Of a DNA stretch of 64,000 nt, positions 54 through 12,099 are shown in pieces. Source of the stretch: Bacteroidota bacterium (GTDB lineage: Bacteria > Bacteroidota > Ignavibacteria > Ignavibacteriales > Ignavibacteriaceae); contig JAKALM010000005.1 of the NCBI GenBank assembly GCA_021824145.1, positions 1 through 64,000 on the forward strand. The letters run 5' to 3'. Position numbers and translations under genes: made by a program. The stretch's first letter is position 1. Each line of letters starts with the position of its first letter. The notes beneath the pieces are model-generated. The model was not told the origin of the DNA. It did not search any database and saw only the letters and a list, made by a program, of their open reading frames with translations.

Positions 54-126
54 GGGCAGATAGCTCAGTCGGTAGAGCAAAGGACTGAAAATCCTTGTGT
101 CGGCGGTTCGATTCCGTCTCTGCCCA
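54..126 (+). tRNA. tRNA-Phe (GAA anticodon)
   Basis: The sequence folds into a full 73-nt cloverleaf. The acceptor arm GGGCAGA (54-60) pairs with TCTGCCC (119-125), the discriminator is A126, the D arm contains AGCTCAGTCGGTAGAGC, the anticodon loop is CTGAAAA with GAA, and the T arm contains GGTTCGATTCC. CCA is not encoded. The gene is intact, but its part from position 68 onward is duplicated 7.2 kb downstream, so the present 3' end was supplied by the integrated element. Confidence 0.97.
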
Positions 127-130
127 CGTT
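68..130 (+). repeat. attL: left 63-bp direct repeat of the tRNA-Phe element
   Basis: These 63 bases are identical to 7298-7360. The repeat starts in the D loop of the tRNA, runs through the anticodon and T arms to the 3' end, and continues four bases (CGTT) past the tRNA. Tyrosine recombinases commonly integrate into tRNA 3' ends and leave such a repeat, and a tyrosine recombinase gene lies beside the other copy. Confidence 0.93.
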
Positions 131-1581: not shown

Positions 1582-1769
1582 CCTAATACCGCCAGTATTT
1601 TTTTTATAGTATCAATTTTCTTCTGGAATAGTATTCTGGAGTTAATCTGCGTCTCTCTTATGGTGGTGTCCGGGTAATTCCTTAAAAACTTTACTTTGAA
1701 AAAGTCATTTTTTATTTGCACATTAAAATCAATAAAACTTAGCAATATTGTCTAAATAGAAATTTTTAG

Positions 1770-1841
1770 AATCCTTCATTTGTGTTCCGAGCTAATCGGA
1801 AGGCTTTGACAAGAGCTGCTAACACAAGTGAGGGATTTTTT
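1770..1841 (+). ncRNA. long stem-loop with T-run (structured RNA or attenuator)
   Basis: Arm 1770-1786 pairs with arm 1821-1837 at 15 of 17 positions, the two exceptions being wobble-compatible T/G pairs. Inside lies a small hairpin CCGA-GCTAA-TCGG (1787-1799) and about 21 further bases. Six T residues (1836-1841) follow the stem, so it looks like an intrinsic terminator with a branched head, placed 15 bases before the next start codon at 1856. It could end the upstream transcript, act as a leader attenuator for the 258-residue protein, or be the 3' end of a small RNA. Confidence 0.55.
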
Positions 1842-1855
1842 ATTTGTGATGGAAA

Positions 1856-2632
1856 ATGGAAAAGAAAAGCGCACTGCAAAGGTTACACGGAGACAATTAT
1901 AAGTTGCAATCTTCAAACGATTCTACAAATAAATATTCTGAAGACGATTTTAAAAAAGCTTGGTTATATGGTAACTTCCTTTTCAATGGAATGTTTTTGC
2001 CAATTAAAGAAGAAGCAGACAAAAGACTTAATCCTTTATTTGACCAGTGGAAAATACTTCTGGCTAACGAAGAAATGAGGAAAGAATTAGAAAATAACAA
2101 AACAAAAATTAGAGATGTGTTTTATAGTATAGTTTTTGAAAGAATTGTGAATGATGAAAGAGCTATGAAGACTTTAGAAATTGTGAATGATGCAAAAAAG
2201 AAAGAGGGCGGGAAACTAACAGAAGATGATTTACCTGTGGAATATCAAAGTATAATTATAAAAGCTGGAATGAGAGAGTTCATAGAAATAATAAACGAGA
2301 TGTTTGAGATACCAAGACTTATTTTAACTACATTTCAAAAAACGAGTAGCGAATTTAAAAGCACTTTAGTATGTCTGAAAAAGAAATATAACAAAGACCA
2401 TAAACGAGCCTTAGTAATGACGGGAAAGAAATTAAAAGAAAAGGATAAAATGAAATATCTAAAGGTATTAGAGAAACAAAAAGAATTGATTAGTATTCAT
2501 GGAAGAAGTTCTCGAAAATCCTTATTACCAAGTGCGATTAGGGCTGAACATAAATTATTATCTCCCAAAAAAATCAACTCTATGTATAGGACAATCAGAT
2601 ACCATCAAGAAAAAGGTAATTTGCCAAAATAA
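1856..2632 (+). CDS. hypothetical protein of the element, 258 aa
   Basis: A soluble, highly charged, mostly helical-looking protein starting MEKKSALQRLHGDNYK. The C-terminal 90 residues are very basic (KKKYNKDHKRALVMTGKKLK), which suggests nucleic-acid binding, but no catalytic motif or named domain is visible. No strong Shine-Dalgarno precedes ATG 1856, and the start sits 15 bases after a T-run-ending stem-loop, so translation or transcription may be controlled by that structure. The gene ends at a clear intrinsic terminator (2631-2660) and is thus a separate transcription unit. Function unknown. Confidence 0.7.
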   Translation: MEKKSALQRLHGDNYKLQSSNDSTNKYSEDDFKKAWLYGNFLFNGMFLPIKEEADKRLNPLFDQWKILLANEEMRKELENNKTKIRDVFYSIVFERIVNDERAMKTLEIVNDAKKKEGGKLTEDDLPVEYQSIIIKAGMREFIEIINEMFEIPRLILTTFQKTSSEFKSTLVCLKKKYNKDHKRALVMTGKKLKEKDKMKYLKVLEKQKELISIHGRSSRKSLLPSAIRAEHKLLSPKKINSMYRTIRYHQEKGNLPK

Positions 2633-2709: not shown

Positions 2710-2793
2710 CTAAGACGGTTATAAATATATTTTTCTGAACTATTAAGCCTCTTTGATTTGCAACCGTCTTAGCATTTCCCAAAGAGGCTTTTT
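2710..2793 (+). ncRNA. pseudoknot-type leader with terminal T-run
   Basis: There are two perfect 11-bp complementary pairs, interleaved. CTAAGACGGTT (2710-2720) pairs with AACCGTCTTAG (2762-2772), and AAGCCTCTTTG (2745-2755) pairs with CAAAGAGGCTT (2780-2790). The order a-b-a'-b' gives an H-type pseudoknot with connecting segments of 24, 6 and 7 nt. The second stem ends in TTTTT (2789-2793), as an intrinsic terminator would. It lies 75 bp before a coupled two-gene unit. It may be a conditional terminator, a replication-control leader like those of some plasmids, or a stable small RNA. Confidence 0.6.
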
Positions 2794-2810: not shown

Positions 2811-2862
2811 AGGCTCTTACCTTCAGCAAAAGGTTTGAGCCTCAAAATCCAAGAAAGGATTT
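2811..2862 (+). promoter_or_regulatory. two leader hairpins; second one holds the ribosome site
   Basis: AGGCTC (2811-2816) pairs with GAGCCT (2837-2842), with ACCTT/AAGGT (2819-2823/2830-2834) stacked inside. Next, AAATCC (2845-2850) pairs with GGATTT (2857-2862). The GGA of the latter belongs to the AAAGGA ribosome site of the gene starting at 2869, so the hairpin would hide it. This suggests translational control, but it is read from complementarity only. Confidence 0.5.
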
Positions 2863-2868
2863 ACTAAG

Positions 2869-3288
2869 ATGTACAGCAAACATAAACAACTTTTGGAATT
2901 ACTTGCAACCAAATATCCTTCGGTATTTCAAGTTAAACTTAACCTTGACATGCAAACAAGGTACATCGGCAAGTTGGATACTTCGGGCGAAGGCAAATTT
3001 TTAACGGAAAGGAAATTGAAACATCTTTTCCGCAAAACAAATTCTTTGGGATTAAATGAAGAATTGTTAAACTCACCTGACATTCATTTCAAATACATTA
3101 CGATTGATTTTGAAGGTCAAAAACTATCCACAACAAGAATGTATTTCTTAACTCACTCAAAGCCGTTTACATTCAATGGATTTGAAAAACAATATTTTTT
3201 GCCTTTAGATGAATTTGGTTTGGATAGAGCAAAGCAATATGAAGACAGCCTAAATATTCAGTTAAATTTGTTTGGGGAGGCTGCATAA
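2869..3288 (+). CDS. hypothetical protein of the element, 139 aa
   Basis: A soluble 139-residue protein (MYSKHKQLLELLATKYPSVF start) with alternating basic and hydrophobic stretches and no recognisable domain. ATG 2869 is preceded by AAAGGA at a normal distance, but that site lies in a 6-bp hairpin. The stop codon overlaps the next start in TAATG (3286-3290), so the two genes are translationally coupled. Its leader contains the pseudoknot-like structure at 2710-2793. Coupled expression suggests that it works with, or sets the level of, the 292-residue protein. Function unknown. Confidence 0.7.
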   Translation: MYSKHKQLLELLATKYPSVFQVKLNLDMQTRYIGKLDTSGEGKFLTERKLKHLFRKTNSLGLNEELLNSPDIHFKYITIDFEGQKLSTTRMYFLTHSKPFTFNGFEKQYFLPLDEFGLDRAKQYEDSLNIQLNLFGEAA

Positions 3289-4166
3289 TGGAAAATTTAG
3301 ATAAAACATTTTTTCAGTTTCCTTTGTGCCTGCTCACCATCAGCAAGGATAGAGATGAAATTATAAATAATATTATATCCTATTGTGTTTGTGAAAAGGC
3401 ATTAAGTTACAAATATGATGTTAATAATATTTCAGAATTCGGATATGATGAAGATACAATTCAGAAAAAATTTTATGATTACGATTTTAATAATCCACTT
3501 CATAACAAAATATTAAAAGCAGCAAATTTCTTTACAATAACACTTGGAAGTATTGGAAGGAATATAAAAACACATGAAAAGGTTTCAAAATTTATTTCAA
3601 ACTTTGAGTTTAGAAACGGTAAAGATAGTTTTGCTGCAATTGGTAAAAATTTAGCTTTTGAATGCAGGGACAAAGGATTCAACTTTGAGCACTTCAAAAT
3701 TCTTTGTGCTATAAATTCGATTGTTGGTAAGAGGAAAAAATTTGTTAGAATAACCTACAGCAGAATAAAGTATGCAATGCACGGATATAGGAGCAAAGTA
3801 ATTTATGAGAAGGAAAAAGCGAATGTTGATTTACTTTCTGATAAACAATTGAAACATAGAATTGATTTTCTAAACGCAAAGAAATTCTATTCAAAGTTTA
3901 CTTATGCAAGACGACAAATATATTTTTCAACAAGAATTAATTCTGATGAAGAATTGAGAGAAGCAGTGAAAAAGAGCAAACTATTTTGGGCTAAAAAGAA
4001 AATGCAATTAGAAGATAATACTGCAACCAACGAGATTAAAAAAGAGATGCTAAGACTAAAAGAAGAAGCCAAACTTTTAACCTTAGAACATCAAACATTA
4101 ATCCGTAGCCAAAAGGAAAATAAAAAGTTAGAATTGTTAAGATTCGGTAAAGCAGTAGGTAATTAA
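3288..4166 (+). CDS. hypothetical DNA-binding-like protein, possible replication or regulatory protein
   Basis: A 292-residue protein starting at ATG 3288, with GGGGAGG about seven bases upstream and a one-base overlap with the preceding gene. Residues about 131-175 (from FEHFKILCAINSIVGKRK to YAMHGYRSK) have the pattern of a winged helix or helix-turn-helix with a basic wing. Residues about 235-285 are a heptad-like, Glu/Lys-rich coiled coil. No catalytic motif is visible. Position behind an RNA-structured leader and coupling to a small upstream gene resemble plasmid replication-initiator arrangements, but this is inference and a plain regulator is equally possible. Confidence 0.65.
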   Translation: MENLDKTFFQFPLCLLTISKDRDEIINNIISYCVCEKALSYKYDVNNISEFGYDEDTIQKKFYDYDFNNPLHNKILKAANFFTITLGSIGRNIKTHEKVSKFISNFEFRNGKDSFAAIGKNLAFECRDKGFNFEHFKILCAINSIVGKRKKFVRITYSRIKYAMHGYRSKVIYEKEKANVDLLSDKQLKHRIDFLNAKKFYSKFTYARRQIYFSTRINSDEELREAVKKSKLFWAKKKMQLEDNTATNEIKKEMLRLKEEAKLLTLEHQTLIRSQKENKKLELLRFGKAVGN

Positions 4167-6205: not shown

Positions 6206-7216
6206 TTAGTTATTTAGCTTATTTACAGAATCCATTAAATCTTCACTTCTTAAATGAGAATATATTGAAGTTATCCTAAGGTCACTGTGTCCAAGTAATT
6301 TCTGTATTGAATAAATTGAAACACCAGATTGAACAAGCCATGAAGCAAAAGTATGACGTAGGCTATGAACATTTAGTTTATGGTTAAGACCGGATTTAAT
6401 TATAATCTTCTTAAACTTGTGTGAAATGAATTGCTGTTTAATCGGTTCACTGTTATAGGTAAAGACAAAATCAGACTTTTCGTTTATTTGTCTTTCGGTT
6501 ACAACTTGCAATGCTTTTAAGTTCAATGGAACGTTTCTTATCTTTTTACTTTTGGTTAAGTGATTCCTGTTATCGAGTATTACTAAACGGTTCTTAAAAT
6601 CTATTTGACTCCAGCGCAAAGTAATTAATTCCATTTCCCTAAGTCCGGTATTTATCCCGAAAATAAAAAGGTCTCTTAGGTCTTTGCTATCAGTAGCAGT
6701 GAGCAATATTTGAAAATCTGTTTCACTGAAAAACAAAGGTAATTTTTCCGGCAGTTTAATTCTCTTTAATCCTTTTACGGGATTCTCAGTTAAATATTTC
6801 TTACCTAAAGCATAATTTATTAATACCGATAAATAAGCGAACTCTCTTTTTACAACGTAAGGGGAAACTTGTTTCATTCTTTCTTGTGTGTAATCGGAAA
6901 GTTTGTCTTTGTTAAGGTCGGTCAATGGAATATTTCCACAATAATTAATAAGGTTATTGAAAAATGATTTGATTGATTTAGTAGTGTTGATTGAATGAAT
7001 AGATTCCGAGTATTTCAAGTATTCAAAAGCAAAGTCCTTTAACAATATTGGAATTGTTTTTAGTGATTCTCTTTCTTTGAGTTTTTGCCTAAATGAAGTA
7101 AGGAAAGATAAAGCTTCACTTTTTAATTTCGTTTTGGTTGAGATGCAAGTTTTCTTACTGAAACTATTCTCATAGAAGATATAATAAATGCCATTTGACC
7201 GCTTAGAAAGATACAT
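6206..7216 (-). CDS. tyrosine recombinase (site-specific integrase)
   Basis: A 336-residue integrase with the usual three parts: an N-terminal arm-binding region (about 1-55), a SAM-like core-binding helical domain (about 58-150), and a catalytic domain (about 165-330). The catalytic set is complete: Arg193 in TGLREME, a Lys near 224, His284 and Arg287 in HSLRHTF, His310 in LLGHSD, and nucleophile Tyr319 in ITSIYSHL. TTGGAG nine bases upstream fixes the start. It catalyses integration and excision between the 63-bp repeats. Its start lies 82 bp from attR and it reads into the element, so it stays with the element on excision. No excisionase is recognised, though one of the small basic genes could serve. 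Confidence 0.95.
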   Translation of the reverse strand: MYLSKRSNGIYYIFYENSFSKKTCISTKTKLKSEALSFLTSFRQKLKERESLKTIPILLKDFAFEYLKYSESIHSINTTKSIKSFFNNLINYCGNIPLTDLNKDKLSDYTQERMKQVSPYVVKREFAYLSVLINYALGKKYLTENPVKGLKRIKLPEKLPLFFSETDFQILLTATDSKDLRDLFIFGINTGLREMELITLRWSQIDFKNRLVILDNRNHLTKSKKIRNVPLNLKALQVVTERQINEKSDFVFTYNSEPIKQQFISHKFKKIIIKSGLNHKLNVHSLRHTFASWLVQSGVSIYSIQKLLGHSDLRITSIYSHLRSEDLMDSVNKLNN

Positions 7217-7297: not shown

Positions 7298-7360
7298 GTC
7301 GGTAGAGCAAAGGACTGAAAATCCTTGTGTCGGCGGTTCGATTCCGTCTCTGCCCACGTT
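7298..7360 (+). repeat. attR: right 63-bp direct repeat
   Basis: This stretch is identical to 68-130. It represents the original chromosomal 3' end of tRNA-Phe. It lacks the acceptor 5' strand and half of the D arm and is therefore not a tRNA gene. Confidence 0.93.
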
Positions 7361-8139: not shown

Positions 8140-8538
8140 ATGCAGTACAAAAAATATAAACAATACAGATTACCGGGTTATGATTATTCTGAAGAGGGAA
8201 ATTATTTTGTTACAATCTGCACATTTAACCGAGAAGAATATTTCGGTGAAATCATTAATGACGAAATGATATTATCAGATGCAGGCAAAATTGTAGGTCA
8301 AATATGGAATGAAATCCCAAATAAATTTGAAAATGTAAAATTAGATGTACATCAAATTATGCCGGATCATTTTCATGGGATAATAACAATAAAATCTGAA
8401 TGCCATAGGAATTTAGTAAATCAGGAGAATTTGACCCGTCTATTAGACGCGCAGGTAAATCAAAAGAATTTGATAAATCAAAAGAATATTACAATCGAAA
8501 AAAATTTTACTTTCAAACCTGCATATTTTTTCTATTAG
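8140..8538 (+). pseudogene. truncated REP-associated tyrosine transposase (Y1/HUH family)
   Basis: The first about 88 residues (MQYKKYKQYRLPGYDYSEEG onward) match the N-terminal half of REP-associated transposases: the YFVTICTFNREEYFG strand, and the metal-binding HUH motif in MPDHFHGIIT. The expected second half, including the region with the catalytic Tyr, is absent. After residue about 90 the frame becomes Asn/Gln/Lys-rich low-complexity sequence made of three copies of an AATCAAAAGAAT-like unit, then stops at 132 residues; full-length members are usually about 150-200. These enzymes cut single-stranded DNA at REP palindromes. This copy is almost surely inactive. Confidence 0.8.
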
Positions 8539-9487: not shown

Positions 9488-10035
9488 TATATTGCCATGT
9501 AAGTTTAAAAAAAATAATATTCGCTGCTCTGTAGTTAAGAAAAATATTTAAATCAAATTACAACCTTTTCTGTTTGCGCTCAAATAAATTATGTAATAAT
9601 CTTAAGGTATATCCATTAAATATTTAATAAAGTCCAGACTTGAGTTATAAATATGGAATGCCATTTTTAGGATAAAATAATTTTTATAAAACGTGCTGCA
9701 AATCTTATTTCAACTATTCGGATAAATTTTTGACTTAAACTTTCTCTTAACTAAAATTAAACTTTCACGATAATAAAATTAGATATAAACAAACAAAAAA
9801 ATCATCTCTTATTTTGCATTTACGCGTGTTCTACAACTAGATTATAATTATAAATAATTGTTAATAGTAGAAATAAAAAATGTTTTTACGAGCACAACAT
9901 TGCTGTTTAATTCTTAATATTATTTAAACAAAATTATGGGTATATATTTCTACAAAAAATAATCAATTAAAATTTTATTAAAAGTAAATATTAATAATTA
10001 TAAAGACTAAAAAATAAAATAGGGTTATAGAAACT
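9488..10035. other. 548-bp AT-rich intergenic region
   Basis: The region lies between divergent genes (EamA transporter and the prkA operon) and must hold promoters for both. It is very AT-rich and I see no gene, RNA or clear operator. The unusual length in front of the prkA operon suggests room for regulated promoters. Confidence 0.5.
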
Positions 10036-12099
10036 ATGCAAACAAATGGAAAAACACTCGACTCATATATGCTGGAGCTGAAACAAGGTCAACACAGGTT
10101 TGAAAATATTTTTGAATCGCTTGCCAGGATGTTATTCAACGATCCTGGATTTATCAAGCCTGTAATTGTAAATGGAAAAAGTACGTACGACTTTACACAA
10201 TTCCGTGCAGGCAAAAAACATATCATAGGATTGTTTGAAGTGATCAACAAGTTTGTTGCTTTTATAAAAGATGCTGCTGAAAACGGCGAAAGCAAGGAAA
10301 TGGCTTTTGTACTTGTTGGCGAACCTGGCAATGGAAAAACATTTTTTGTTGATTTCGTATCATCAATGTACAGAAAATATATTTCAATACCAGAGAATAA
10401 TAAATATACTTTCCGCTTCAAACTGCCGGAGGATTTAGATGGTTATGGAAAAATCAGATTGATTGAATCCCAAACGTATGAAGATCCTGTAGTACTATTT
10501 ATGAATCTTTATAATAAAATTGATGACAACAAAGAAAATTTATCTAAGCTTGATTTCGATGACCCGCAGATAGAAAAATTTTTTAATAACTATCGTTCTC
10601 TTGGTGCTGATACAGAATTTATTCTGAAAGATTTAATAAATTATTATGATGATGACGTAGAAAAAGTTAAAGAGTGTATTGAGATTGTTAAAGTGCCAAT
10701 TAGTGAAACTTTAGGAACAATAACTGGAAAATATCCGGCAAAAGATAAGCTGACCAGCAGCGGAGTTGATTTAGTCGGGGAAGAAAGTATTCAGCGGCTT
10801 CTGCATATAACAAATTCAAATAACCCATACCGTTTTGATTTAAGAAGAGGCGCTCTTGCCCGTGTTGCTTGCGGCGGAATTCACTTTGCAGATGAAATCT
10901 TTAAGAACAAAACTGATTTACTAAAAATTTACCTTGGCGTAGTTCAAAATAGAGTAATAGAGATTGATGCATTCAAGTGGCCCATTGATACTTTAATTAT
11001 TGCAACCAGCAATAATGCAGATGTTCAAAACTACCGGGCAAATGATGAAGAAAAACCAATCCTTGATAGATGTAAGTTTTGCTACGTTGCTCATAATACA
11101 AATTACAAGCTTCAGGAAGAATTGACTAAATACGCTCTTGGTGAAGGAGATAAAACAACATTCGTCGGCGATAAATTACACATTGATCCAAACTTGACTT
11201 ACACATTATCAGTAATAGTTACTTTAAGCAGATTGCCGAGAGCAGAAGATAAATTAACTCCAATTGAAATGATGAAGCTTGCAGCCGGCGAAGTTGCCGG
11301 AGAGAAAAGCGTAAAAACTTTAGCAGAAATTGTTGATCAATTAGAGCATGAATCCGATACAACAAAAAGATTCGGTCAGAAAGGGCTTGGTCAGCGTGAC
11401 TTGGCAAGAATGATAAACACACAGCGCGGTTATTCTGAAACGAACGAAGGGAAATGTATGTTCAGCTTAAATGTTTTTAAAGCTGCTGAAGAAGTTATTC
11501 TCGATTATGTTCAGGATAATACAGAGAGGGCAAAATATTTTGAGGATTTAAAAATTGCCAAAGACCTTTACCGGAAGAGAATTCGTACTGAAATGTTTAA
11601 TGCTTTTATGGATGAGCCGGAGGCAATTAAAAAAGATGTAATGATGTATGTTAATATGATTGTCGGTATGGGGCGTTCCGATTTGGGCCCCGATAAAATA
11701 ATTACTTACCGCGACCCACAGACGAAAAAAATGCAGCCGATTAAAATAGATGAGCGTTTCGTAAATGCTGTTGAAAATGAATTGGAAATGAAAACTCAAG
11801 AACAGAAAGAATCATTCCGCGGACAGATAAGAAAAATTTATGCACAGCGATTACAAACTGACAAGAATTACGATTTTATGGATAACGTTGATCTTGTAAA
11901 AGCTGTTACCGATACAAGATTAAATTCAGATATTGCATCGGCTGGCGGGCTTGTTGGCGCACTTGCAAATCGAACAAATGAAGATAATGAAAAGCTATAT
12001 AACCGCATTGTTACAACAATGAAAAATAAATTAGGATATTGTACAACTTGTGCCCAAAAAACAATTGAATTTTTCTGTACACAAGATCATCAATCTTAA
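10036..12099 (+). CDS. prkA: PrkA-family serine protein kinase / AAA+ ATPase
   Basis: A 687-residue homologue of PrkA/YeaG. An N-terminal AAA+ PrkA domain occupies about 15-400, with Walker A GEPGNGKT at 95-102 and an acidic ADEIFKNK stretch near 297 that is probably Walker B. A C-terminal PrkA kinase-like domain (about 430-680) ends with a GYCTTCAQKTIEFFC cysteine cluster. Known relatives in E. coli (YeaG) and Bacillus (PrkA) act in starvation and sporulation signalling, probably as cytoplasmic kinases or proteases. It is the first gene of a four-gene rightward run: YeaH follows after 18 bp, then SpoVR after 6 bp. This gene order is the conserved prkA-yeaH-spoVR arrangement. Length is slightly above the usual about 640 residues. 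Confidence 0.93.
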   Translation: MQTNGKTLDSYMLELKQGQHRFENIFESLARMLFNDPGFIKPVIVNGKSTYDFTQFRAGKKHIIGLFEVINKFVAFIKDAAENGESKEMAFVLVGEPGNGKTFFVDFVSSMYRKYISIPENNKYTFRFKLPEDLDGYGKIRLIESQTYEDPVVLFMNLYNKIDDNKENLSKLDFDDPQIEKFFNNYRSLGADTEFILKDLINYYDDDVEKVKECIEIVKVPISETLGTITGKYPAKDKLTSSGVDLVGEESIQRLLHITNSNNPYRFDLRRGALARVACGGIHFADEIFKNKTDLLKIYLGVVQNRVIEIDAFKWPIDTLIIATSNNADVQNYRANDEEKPILDRCKFCYVAHNTNYKLQEELTKYALGEGDKTTFVGDKLHIDPNLTYTLSVIVTLSRLPRAEDKLTPIEMMKLAAGEVAGEKSVKTLAEIVDQLEHESDTTKRFGQKGLGQRDLARMINTQRGYSETNEGKCMFSLNVFKAAEEVILDYVQDNTERAKYFEDLKIAKDLYRKRIRTEMFNAFMDEPEAIKKDVMMYVNMIVGMGRSDLGPDKIITYRDPQTKKMQPIKIDERFVNAVENELEMKTQEQKESFRGQIRKIYAQRLQTDKNYDFMDNVDLVKAVTDTRLNSDIASAGGLVGALANRTNEDNEKLYNRIVTTMKNKLGYCTTCAQKTIEFFCTQDHQS

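Follow-up and report, generated by a model that had tools for sequence, protein, structure and literature searches.

Candidate pseudoknot-terminator leaders ahead of two operons of an integrative element in Ignavibacteria

The first 64,000 nucleotides (nt) of contig JAKALM010000005.1 (GenBank assembly GCA_021824145.1, Bacteroidota bacterium, family Ignavibacteriaceae), referred to here as the window, contain a 7.2-kb integrative element at a tRNA-Phe gene. One operon of this element begins with a gene for a protein of 139 amino acids (aa) and is preceded by a leader, RNA2. We read RNA2, with moderate confidence, as a transcription attenuator in which a pseudoknot is woven through an intrinsic terminator, and which heads what may be the replication operon of the element. 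A second leader of the same layout, RNA1, lies upstream, and this two-leader arrangement at two operons of integrative elements in Ignavibacteria is, with similar confidence, the best reading of our comparison. RNA2 is probably a genuine switch that has not been described before, because many relatives keep the knot while the letters of its arms change.

Interleaved pairs in the RNA2 leader

An earlier note on this DNA, made from its letters alone, had described two perfect interleaved 11-bp pairs in the order a-b-a'-b' that end in a T-run, and we confirmed them at 2710-2793 (Table 1). The loops between the four 11-mers are 24, 6 and 7 nt long, and both order and loops are those of an H-type pseudoknot; RNA2 would fold as one if both helices formed at the same time. 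The b:b' helix has a stacking energy of -19.7 kcal/mol and runs into the T-run at 2789-2793, as in intrinsic terminators, and termination is predicted at this point.

Of 20000 dinucleotide shuffles of 2700-2800, 27 gave two interleaved helices of at least 10 bp, G-U pairs included. When the 200 nt upstream of the gene were considered, the observed energy of -41.8 was matched by none of 60 and none of 100 shuffles. The nested minimum-energy fold of RNA2 is the b:b' stem, which extends outward beyond the T-run (-28.9, z -4.46). The 139-aa gene starts 78 nt from the structure, with 75 nt between T-run and start codon. Neither leader of the window gave a match at the gathering score among 4227 Rfam families, weaker matches lying far below the gathering scores.

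A second hairpin stands between RNA2 and the start codon. A hairpin near the start codon is also present in the related loci L088, L091, L093 and L121, and may be an antisense terminator, with a T-rich run on the opposite strand. By eye, its arms change in step, from AGGCTC/GAGCCT in the window to AGGCTT/AAGCCT in L088.

RNA2 in related elements

Relatives of the 139-aa gene, here called the family gene, were present in 26 genomes of a sample of 391 from the class and in 11 of a sample of 395 from the phylum, two samples that overlap; viral contigs searched for relatives gave a single distant match, and plasmids and phages none. We compared 36 neighbourhoods, part of them ending at contig ends; the family gene of L101 was dropped by the open reading frame (ORF) filter. 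The suggestion of the earlier note that the leader controls the genes behind it gains from this comparison. Related elements keep differently lettered pairs and a terminator before the gene, and a cluster of helicases (DnaB/D5-type) is encoded downstream of the family gene in 20 of the 36 neighbourhoods.

Interleaved pairs were scanned for in the 200 nt upstream of the gene, with no T-run demanded. All shuffles were beaten by 15 of 35 family leaders with 60 shuffles and by 16 of 35, in a slightly different set, with 100 shuffles; control regions upstream of other genes at the same loci beat all 100 shuffles in 16 of 155 cases. In the terminator test a hairpin with a T-run was demanded, and the pairing of its loop near b' with upstream sequence was compared with 500 shuffles. 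The a:a' pairing was reached by no shuffle for the window, L090, L092, L097 and L105, by one for L100, two for L119, three each for L098, L106 and L110, 15 for L103 and 16 for L113. L110 and L116 (24 of 500) were counted as leaders of a small gene that precedes the family gene. With 200 shuffles, and with leader hairpins at most 120 nt from the start and stems of -12 or lower, a:a' had p <= 0.01 at 8 of 19 leader terminators, compared with 13 of 575 other terminator-like hairpins at the same loci; for such hairpins outside ORFs the count was 6 of 162.

The terminator stem ends 14-23 nt ahead of the start codon in L097, L098, L100, L102, L103, L105, L106 and L113, and a:a' is significant at 0.05 in seven of these eight, L102 being the exception (71 of 500). 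This spacing leaves no room for a promoter between stem and gene, so that the gene would be transcribed only via read-through. The earlier note had offered two parallels, the conditional terminator and the translational pseudoknot of plasmids. The former fits better and the latter less well, because of these eight stems and because the structure in the window is so far from its start codon.

The closest relative, L088, has 76% protein identity to the 139-aa protein of the window. All four of its arms differ in letters from those of the window yet pair (GTCCCAAAC/GTTTGGGAC and AACCCTT/AAGGGTT; none of 60 and none of 100 shuffles). From a to b' the two leaders are 55% identical (shuffled 49 ± 3%), and the 71 nt from T-run to start are 81% identical. 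In L089 the a-b-a'-b' order was recognised by eye only (p 0.06). L133 and L134, found only via RNA1, have no ORF in their stretches that matches the 139-aa family, but both have an interleaved leader in front of the genes that follow: in L134 with helices of 13 and 9 bp and a:a' at 0 of 500, in L133 at 0 of 100 in the plain scan. These leaders suggest that it is the operon, and not the 139-aa gene, that RNA2 would accompany.

Other observations were made at the same loci. Further interleaved terminators, perhaps a third leader of the element, follow the start of the family gene at a distance of about 3.2 kb, on the plus strand with stem ends near 7771 in L103, 11938 in L102 and 5877 in L099. 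In L115 and L122 the stretch separating the upstream gene from the leader holds repeated TTCACGRAA units that resemble iterons or operators, and inverted or direct repeats were seen by eye at the same place in L092, L093, L095, L102 and L119. The interleaved pairs of L135 stand directly before the family gene and perhaps act on translation.

RNA1, a sequence-conserved leader upstream

RNA1, which the earlier note had missed, has the same layout as RNA2 and a conserved sequence. It surfaced from the control scan, where 11 of the 155 upstream regions were strong (z <= -4) and nine of these were of RNA1 type, preceding the gene upstream of the family gene or another element gene. Seven of the nine were recognised by covariance model with an expectation value (E) below 0.01, a second copy in L103 with E 0.07, and the one in L105 by eye only. 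The two remaining hits, L096_13 and L115_13, are not RNA1. L096 also carries, at most 200 nt upstream of an ORF at 9501-10364 on the minus strand, a 22-bp near-perfect inverted repeat, AAGGATCGAGACTGTGTAAAAA, which may represent the ends of a small mobile unit.

In the window copy, inner hairpins accompany a terminator stem of about 15 bp, and two predicted pseudoknots join the 5' part to the terminator loop; the folding energy of this copy is -35.8 on the sense strand versus -18.3 on the other. For the structure including pseudoknot 1, the covariation score of nine sequences was reached by none of 500 shuffles. Two covariance models were used, R1, built without pseudoknots, and R2, built from more RNA1 copies; the window copy belongs to the training sets of both. 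R1 found further copies and, under stricter filters, detected RNA1 in 9 of 294 genomes, two of which lay beyond those of the protein searches. R2 found L135 outside its training set (E 5e-5), with CTTCCGA/TCGGAAG at the expected place, and two weaker hits outside that set, L136 and a second copy in L134, have 5 and 4 bp as read by eye. At least four T are present in every one of the 21 aligned copies. Among the 20 RNA1 hits listed, 13 end at most 26 nt from the next ORF start, and ten of those ORFs are directly upstream of the family gene.

Pseudoknot 1 occupies a roughly fixed position in the new hits, which were outside model building. In a partner-swap test on 10 distinct sequences the mean energy was -10.1 kcal/mol with the own partner and -4.2 kcal/mol with swapped partners, a result reached by none of 20000 permutations; among the new hits 9 of 10, and overall 11 of 15, had their own partner in first place. 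Repeats of the same core had been dropped for this test, reducing the new hits from 13 to 10 and the whole set from 22 to 15; the L103 stem (3507), which had run into the pseudoknot strand, was trimmed by hand by 3 nt, and the window copy was tested with a relative of the same core. MAFFT sets pseudoknot 1 in two registers one column apart, and the covariation count was therefore limited to 13 of the 21 aligned sequences, leaving out the window, L088, L089, L093, L121, L107, L120 and L130. In these 13 one-register sequences 94.9% of cells are paired, the covariation was reached by none of 500 shuffles, and five of the six pairs changed on both sides. Single shuffle tests are weak (3 of 22 at p <= 0.02, training and new sets together) because the helix is short. 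The claim for pseudoknot 1, as a prediction from sequence, is carried by the fixed position and the partner-swap test. Pseudoknot 2 is weaker: the swap test gave 0 of 20000, and the own partner came first in only 5 of 18 relatives, a set without the window.

In both leaders the 5' part has its partner in a strand just 5' of the terminator 3' arm. Cross-pairing between the two leaders of the window, through a shared CTTAGCA, was noticed by eye and taken as chance, since it was not seen in the relatives inspected (L088, L097, L102 and L103).

The element and its operon

The element was called because of a 63-bp tRNA-Phe direct repeat and a tyrosine integrase gene at 6206-7216; an integrase and direct attachment (att) repeats at the 3' end of a tRNA gene are thus both present, the repeats having been examined in the window. 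The 36 neighbourhoods follow a recurring plan: an integrase cluster (29 members in 28 neighbourhoods) is followed by the leader and the family gene, in most cases with a variable gene of some 180-300 aa ahead of the leader. Pfam assigned one of two helicase-cluster members to DnaB and one to the D5 type. In 11 neighbourhoods there is a cluster with no Pfam match that by eye resembles replication initiators. Our searches detected no helicase gene in the element of the window. An ORF just beyond the element, at 8140-8538, has a PDHFHG motif and by eye resembles a cut-off REP-type (Y1) transposase.

Searches of Pfam, PHROGs, NCBIfam and PDB sequences with members of the 139-aa family gave nothing convincing, only weak single matches, so that homology offers no ground for naming the 139-aa protein a replication protein. 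A predicted fold from five sequences had a mean pLDDT of 44 and was not used. The motif Q-x-x-[LIM]-F lies within the last 25 residues in 25 of 36 family members, compared with 2 of the 463 other ORFs that have 90 aa or more. Passages of PMC4549789 give a QLxLF-type motif, often C-terminal, as the beta-clamp binding consensus, and binding of the clamp (DnaN) by the family is predicted. L094 has two nearby copies of the family gene.

The coupling of the 139-aa and 292-aa genes proposed earlier holds in the window, where the stop codon at 3286-3288 overlaps the start at 3288. It is not kept in the closest relative, where a gap of about 0.5 kb containing a 118-aa ORF separates the counterparts. 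A Pfam search with the window and L104 members of the 292-aa cluster gave no match.

Table 1. Positions of the leaders, their predicted arms and the main genes of the element in the window
Feature	Position	Strand	Remarks
tRNA-Phe (GAA)	54..127	+	integration site of the element
Left att copy	68..130	+	63 bp, identical to 7298-7360; direct repeat D1
RNA1	1729..1845	+	sequence-conserved pseudoknot-terminator leader before the 258-aa gene; R1 108.6 bits, R2 93.6 bits
RNA1 pseudoknot 1, 5' strand TTAGCA	1739..1744	+	predicted to pair with 1817-1822
RNA1 pseudoknot 2, 5' strand TTGTC	1748..1752	+	potential partner GACAA 1808-1812
RNA1 terminator stem	5' arm 1770..1785, 3' arm 1822-1837	+	six-T run 1836-1841, first two T within the arm
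RNA1 pseudoknot 1, 3' strand TGCTAA	1817..1822	+	abuts terminator 3' arm; base 1822 assignable to either
258-aa protein	1856..2632	+	between RNA1 and RNA2; no convincing family match; gene varies between elements
RNA2 arm a, CTAAGACGGTT	2710-2720	+	
RNA2 arm b, AAGCCTCTTTG	2745-2755	+	5' arm of predicted terminator
RNA2 arm a', AACCGTCTTAG	2762-2772	+	inside terminator loop
RNA2 arm b', CAAAGAGGCTT, and T-run	2780..2793	+	b' 2780-2790, T-run 2789-2793
Second hairpin, AGGCTC/GAGCCT	2811..2842	-	ahead of start codon; T-rich run follows on minus strand; by eye
139-aa protein	2869..3288	+	first gene of the operon; no convincing family match
QLNLF, C-terminal	3259..3273	+	putative beta-clamp (DnaN) binding motif
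292-aa protein	3288..4166	+	overlaps 139-aa gene; cluster c6 (window, L088, L093, L104)
Tyrosine integrase	6206..7216	-	Pfam PF00589, E 2.8e-36
Right att copy	7298..7360	+	3' part of tRNA-Phe; direct repeat

Discussion

Sequence comparison supports the pairs, the covariation of RNA1, the terminators, the operon position and the shared layout. From these we infer, for the operon of the window, the transcription start, attenuation, the sense and trigger of the switch, and a role in replication. Transcription would start shortly upstream of a, near the 5' end of the leader. Strands b and b' would form the intrinsic terminator, whose loop offers a', close to b', for pairing with a. Because a:a' can form before b' is transcribed, with b held in its loop, b:b' would then have to thread through to complete the pseudoknot. 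The balance between the unknotted terminator and a:a', or the full knot, would set how often transcription reads through into the operon. Our guess at the sense is that a:a' slows terminator formation and favours read-through, and that an occupant of a or a', either a second copy of the short RNA or an element protein, restores termination. RNA2 would then brake replication while the element resides in the chromosome. The opposite sense, in which the knot aids termination and yields a stable small RNA, is also conceivable. The RNA1 pseudoknot strand abuts the terminator arm, which speaks for the coexistence of both, and the two could stack as one compact fold.

Several results weigh against an attenuator of this kind. 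A promoter ahead of a is modestly supported: strong matches to the Bacteroidota-type promoter consensus were found for 5 of 17 RNA2 leaders (1.4 expected) and 6 of 21 RNA1 leaders (1.5 expected). Not all family leaders show the structure. About half have none that is clear, and some have only a simple hairpin near the start; 19 of 35 fall short of beating all 100 shuffles, L094 and L122 are among the 16 that pass but lack the T-run layout, and 8 of 35 have no terminator-like hairpin. Relatives that keep the gene without the pairs, which the earlier note had named as grounds for rejecting its reading, give a mixed picture, with no significant pairs in several, among them L093, L095, L104 and L108. 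The interleaved pairs of L135 upstream of its family gene have no T-run (2 of 100). L088, with a last loop of 15 nt, passes only the scan with a wider last-loop limit, and under the rules of the terminator test another hairpin was picked (114 of 500). L134 scored 11 of 100 in the plain scan, and L133 38 of 500 in the a:a' test. A third upstream arm competing for a had p <= 0.025 in 7 of 19 leaders and was not significant in the window (p 0.37), and that of L088 coincides with a promoter-like box. The RNA2 arms were located by a pairing search, and their changes are search results checked by shuffles, not alignment counts; the support comes from the shuffles and from the comparison with other terminator-like hairpins. 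R1 also picked up the RNA2 leaders L098 (E 0.023) and L113 (E 0.15), but R2 gave L098 E 0.16 and did not bring L113 below 0.5, and with this weaker link RNA1 and RNA2 may, but need not, share a common descent.

A number of known systems resemble RNA2 in part. The C4 antisense RNA of P1/P7 is a prophage RNA controlling downstream genes; the window leaders have no Rfam match, and a cmscan of them gave none to C4 antisense RNA (RF01695). In the countertranscript-driven attenuators of plasmids pT181 and pIP501 a leader terminator of the replication gene decides expression and an antisense RNA sets the competing arms, whereas the terminator loop of RNA2 has its partner upstream, in cis. The fluoride (crcB) and ZTP (pfl) riboswitches also place a pseudoknot next to a terminator, but they are conserved aptamers before host genes, unlike RNA2, which has no conserved sequence, and RNA1, which precedes element genes. 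A type III toxin-antitoxin system, in which an RNA pseudoknot precedes a toxin gene, was dropped as the protein has no family match. STAXI is a pseudoknot motif near genes of DNA-handling proteins, sometimes near C4 RNAs; it differs from RNA1 and RNA2 in consisting of tandem repeats in Enterobacteriales, and the passage on it in PMC2864571 mentions no terminator role. In satellite P4, also an integrated element, transcription terminates in a leader ahead of the replication genes, and complementary segments, seqA and seqC, surround the immunity RNA, CI, according to passages of PMC4825925. P4 belongs to a different phylum, and here the terminator is intrinsic, with interleaved pairs. RNA2 would appear to work like P4 or plasmid attenuation, but matches no specific RNA family.

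The closest competing explanation, possible though distinctly less probable than attenuation in cis, is that both leaders are stable knotted small RNAs with the terminator as their 3' end, generated by premature termination and acting in trans on their own leaders or on other copies, for immunity or copy control as with the CI RNA of P4. CI acts through pairing with seqA and seqC (passages of PMC4825925), the RNA1 pseudoknot strand adjoins the terminator arm, and the RNA2 arms of the window and L088 are turned over yet paired, as expected if pairing sets specificity; the absence of support for a P4-like third segment in the window stands against it. We think it improbable that the interleaved inverted repeats act in DNA, as binding sites for the upstream gene product or for integrase or replication proteins, or as part of an origin. 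Inverted repeats are strand-symmetric, the upstream gene, like the arms, differs from element to element, and operator-like repeats were seen by eye between that gene and the leader in several relatives. RNA1, however, folds better on its sense strand and has inner hairpins and covarying pseudoknots, and the sense strand is also better in 14 of the 16 strongest RNA2 leaders (not in L090 and L094), a count biased in that the set was chosen on the sense score.

We give equally little credence to an ordinary terminator of the upstream gene, with a:a' incidental and the operon promoter between 2793 and 2869. The b:b' stem alone would make a good terminator and is the nested minimum-energy fold, and the gap behind the T-run in the window is wide enough to suit this; but the eight stems lying close to start codons, the far greater frequency of a:a' here than at other terminator-like hairpins, and the likewise placement of RNA1 before a gene all speak against it. 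Least likely of all is a translational pseudoknot that opens a ribosome-binding site, as in ColIb-P9 repZ and IncL/M repA, which titles among the references of PMC10724649 present as replication genes with a leader pseudoknot. The likeness is that of a leader pseudoknot before an operon with replication genes in relatives. Control in those plasmids is translational, with the structure at or beside the ribosome-binding site, while that of the window is distant from the start, though it is nearer in several relatives, and ends in a T-run; and 2633-2868 holds no ORF of at least 60 aa, shorter ones not having been sought.

RNA control of the replication of integrated elements is, to our knowledge, known from few models, and no description of RNA1, RNA2 or these elements was found in the literature, which was covered incompletely. 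RNA1 adds a structured RNA with strong covariation and no Rfam match, and RNA2 has the same layout at the next operon; both leaders are associated with a single group of integrative elements, in a bacterial class that has been studied little. A terminator whose loop pairs with the beginning of the same transcript makes a simple and directly testable switch design, and some twenty natural variants of each leader are available for comparison. More speculatively, and in our view doubtfully, integrative elements of Ignavibacteria may have a new form of self-control through RNA, with two or more operons per element each headed by a pseudoknot-locked terminator and the RNA2 arms, which change fast yet stay complementary, serving as a specificity code. 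If so, short RNAs of a resident element would switch off the replication operon of an arriving relative when the codes agree, and leave those of other relatives untouched.
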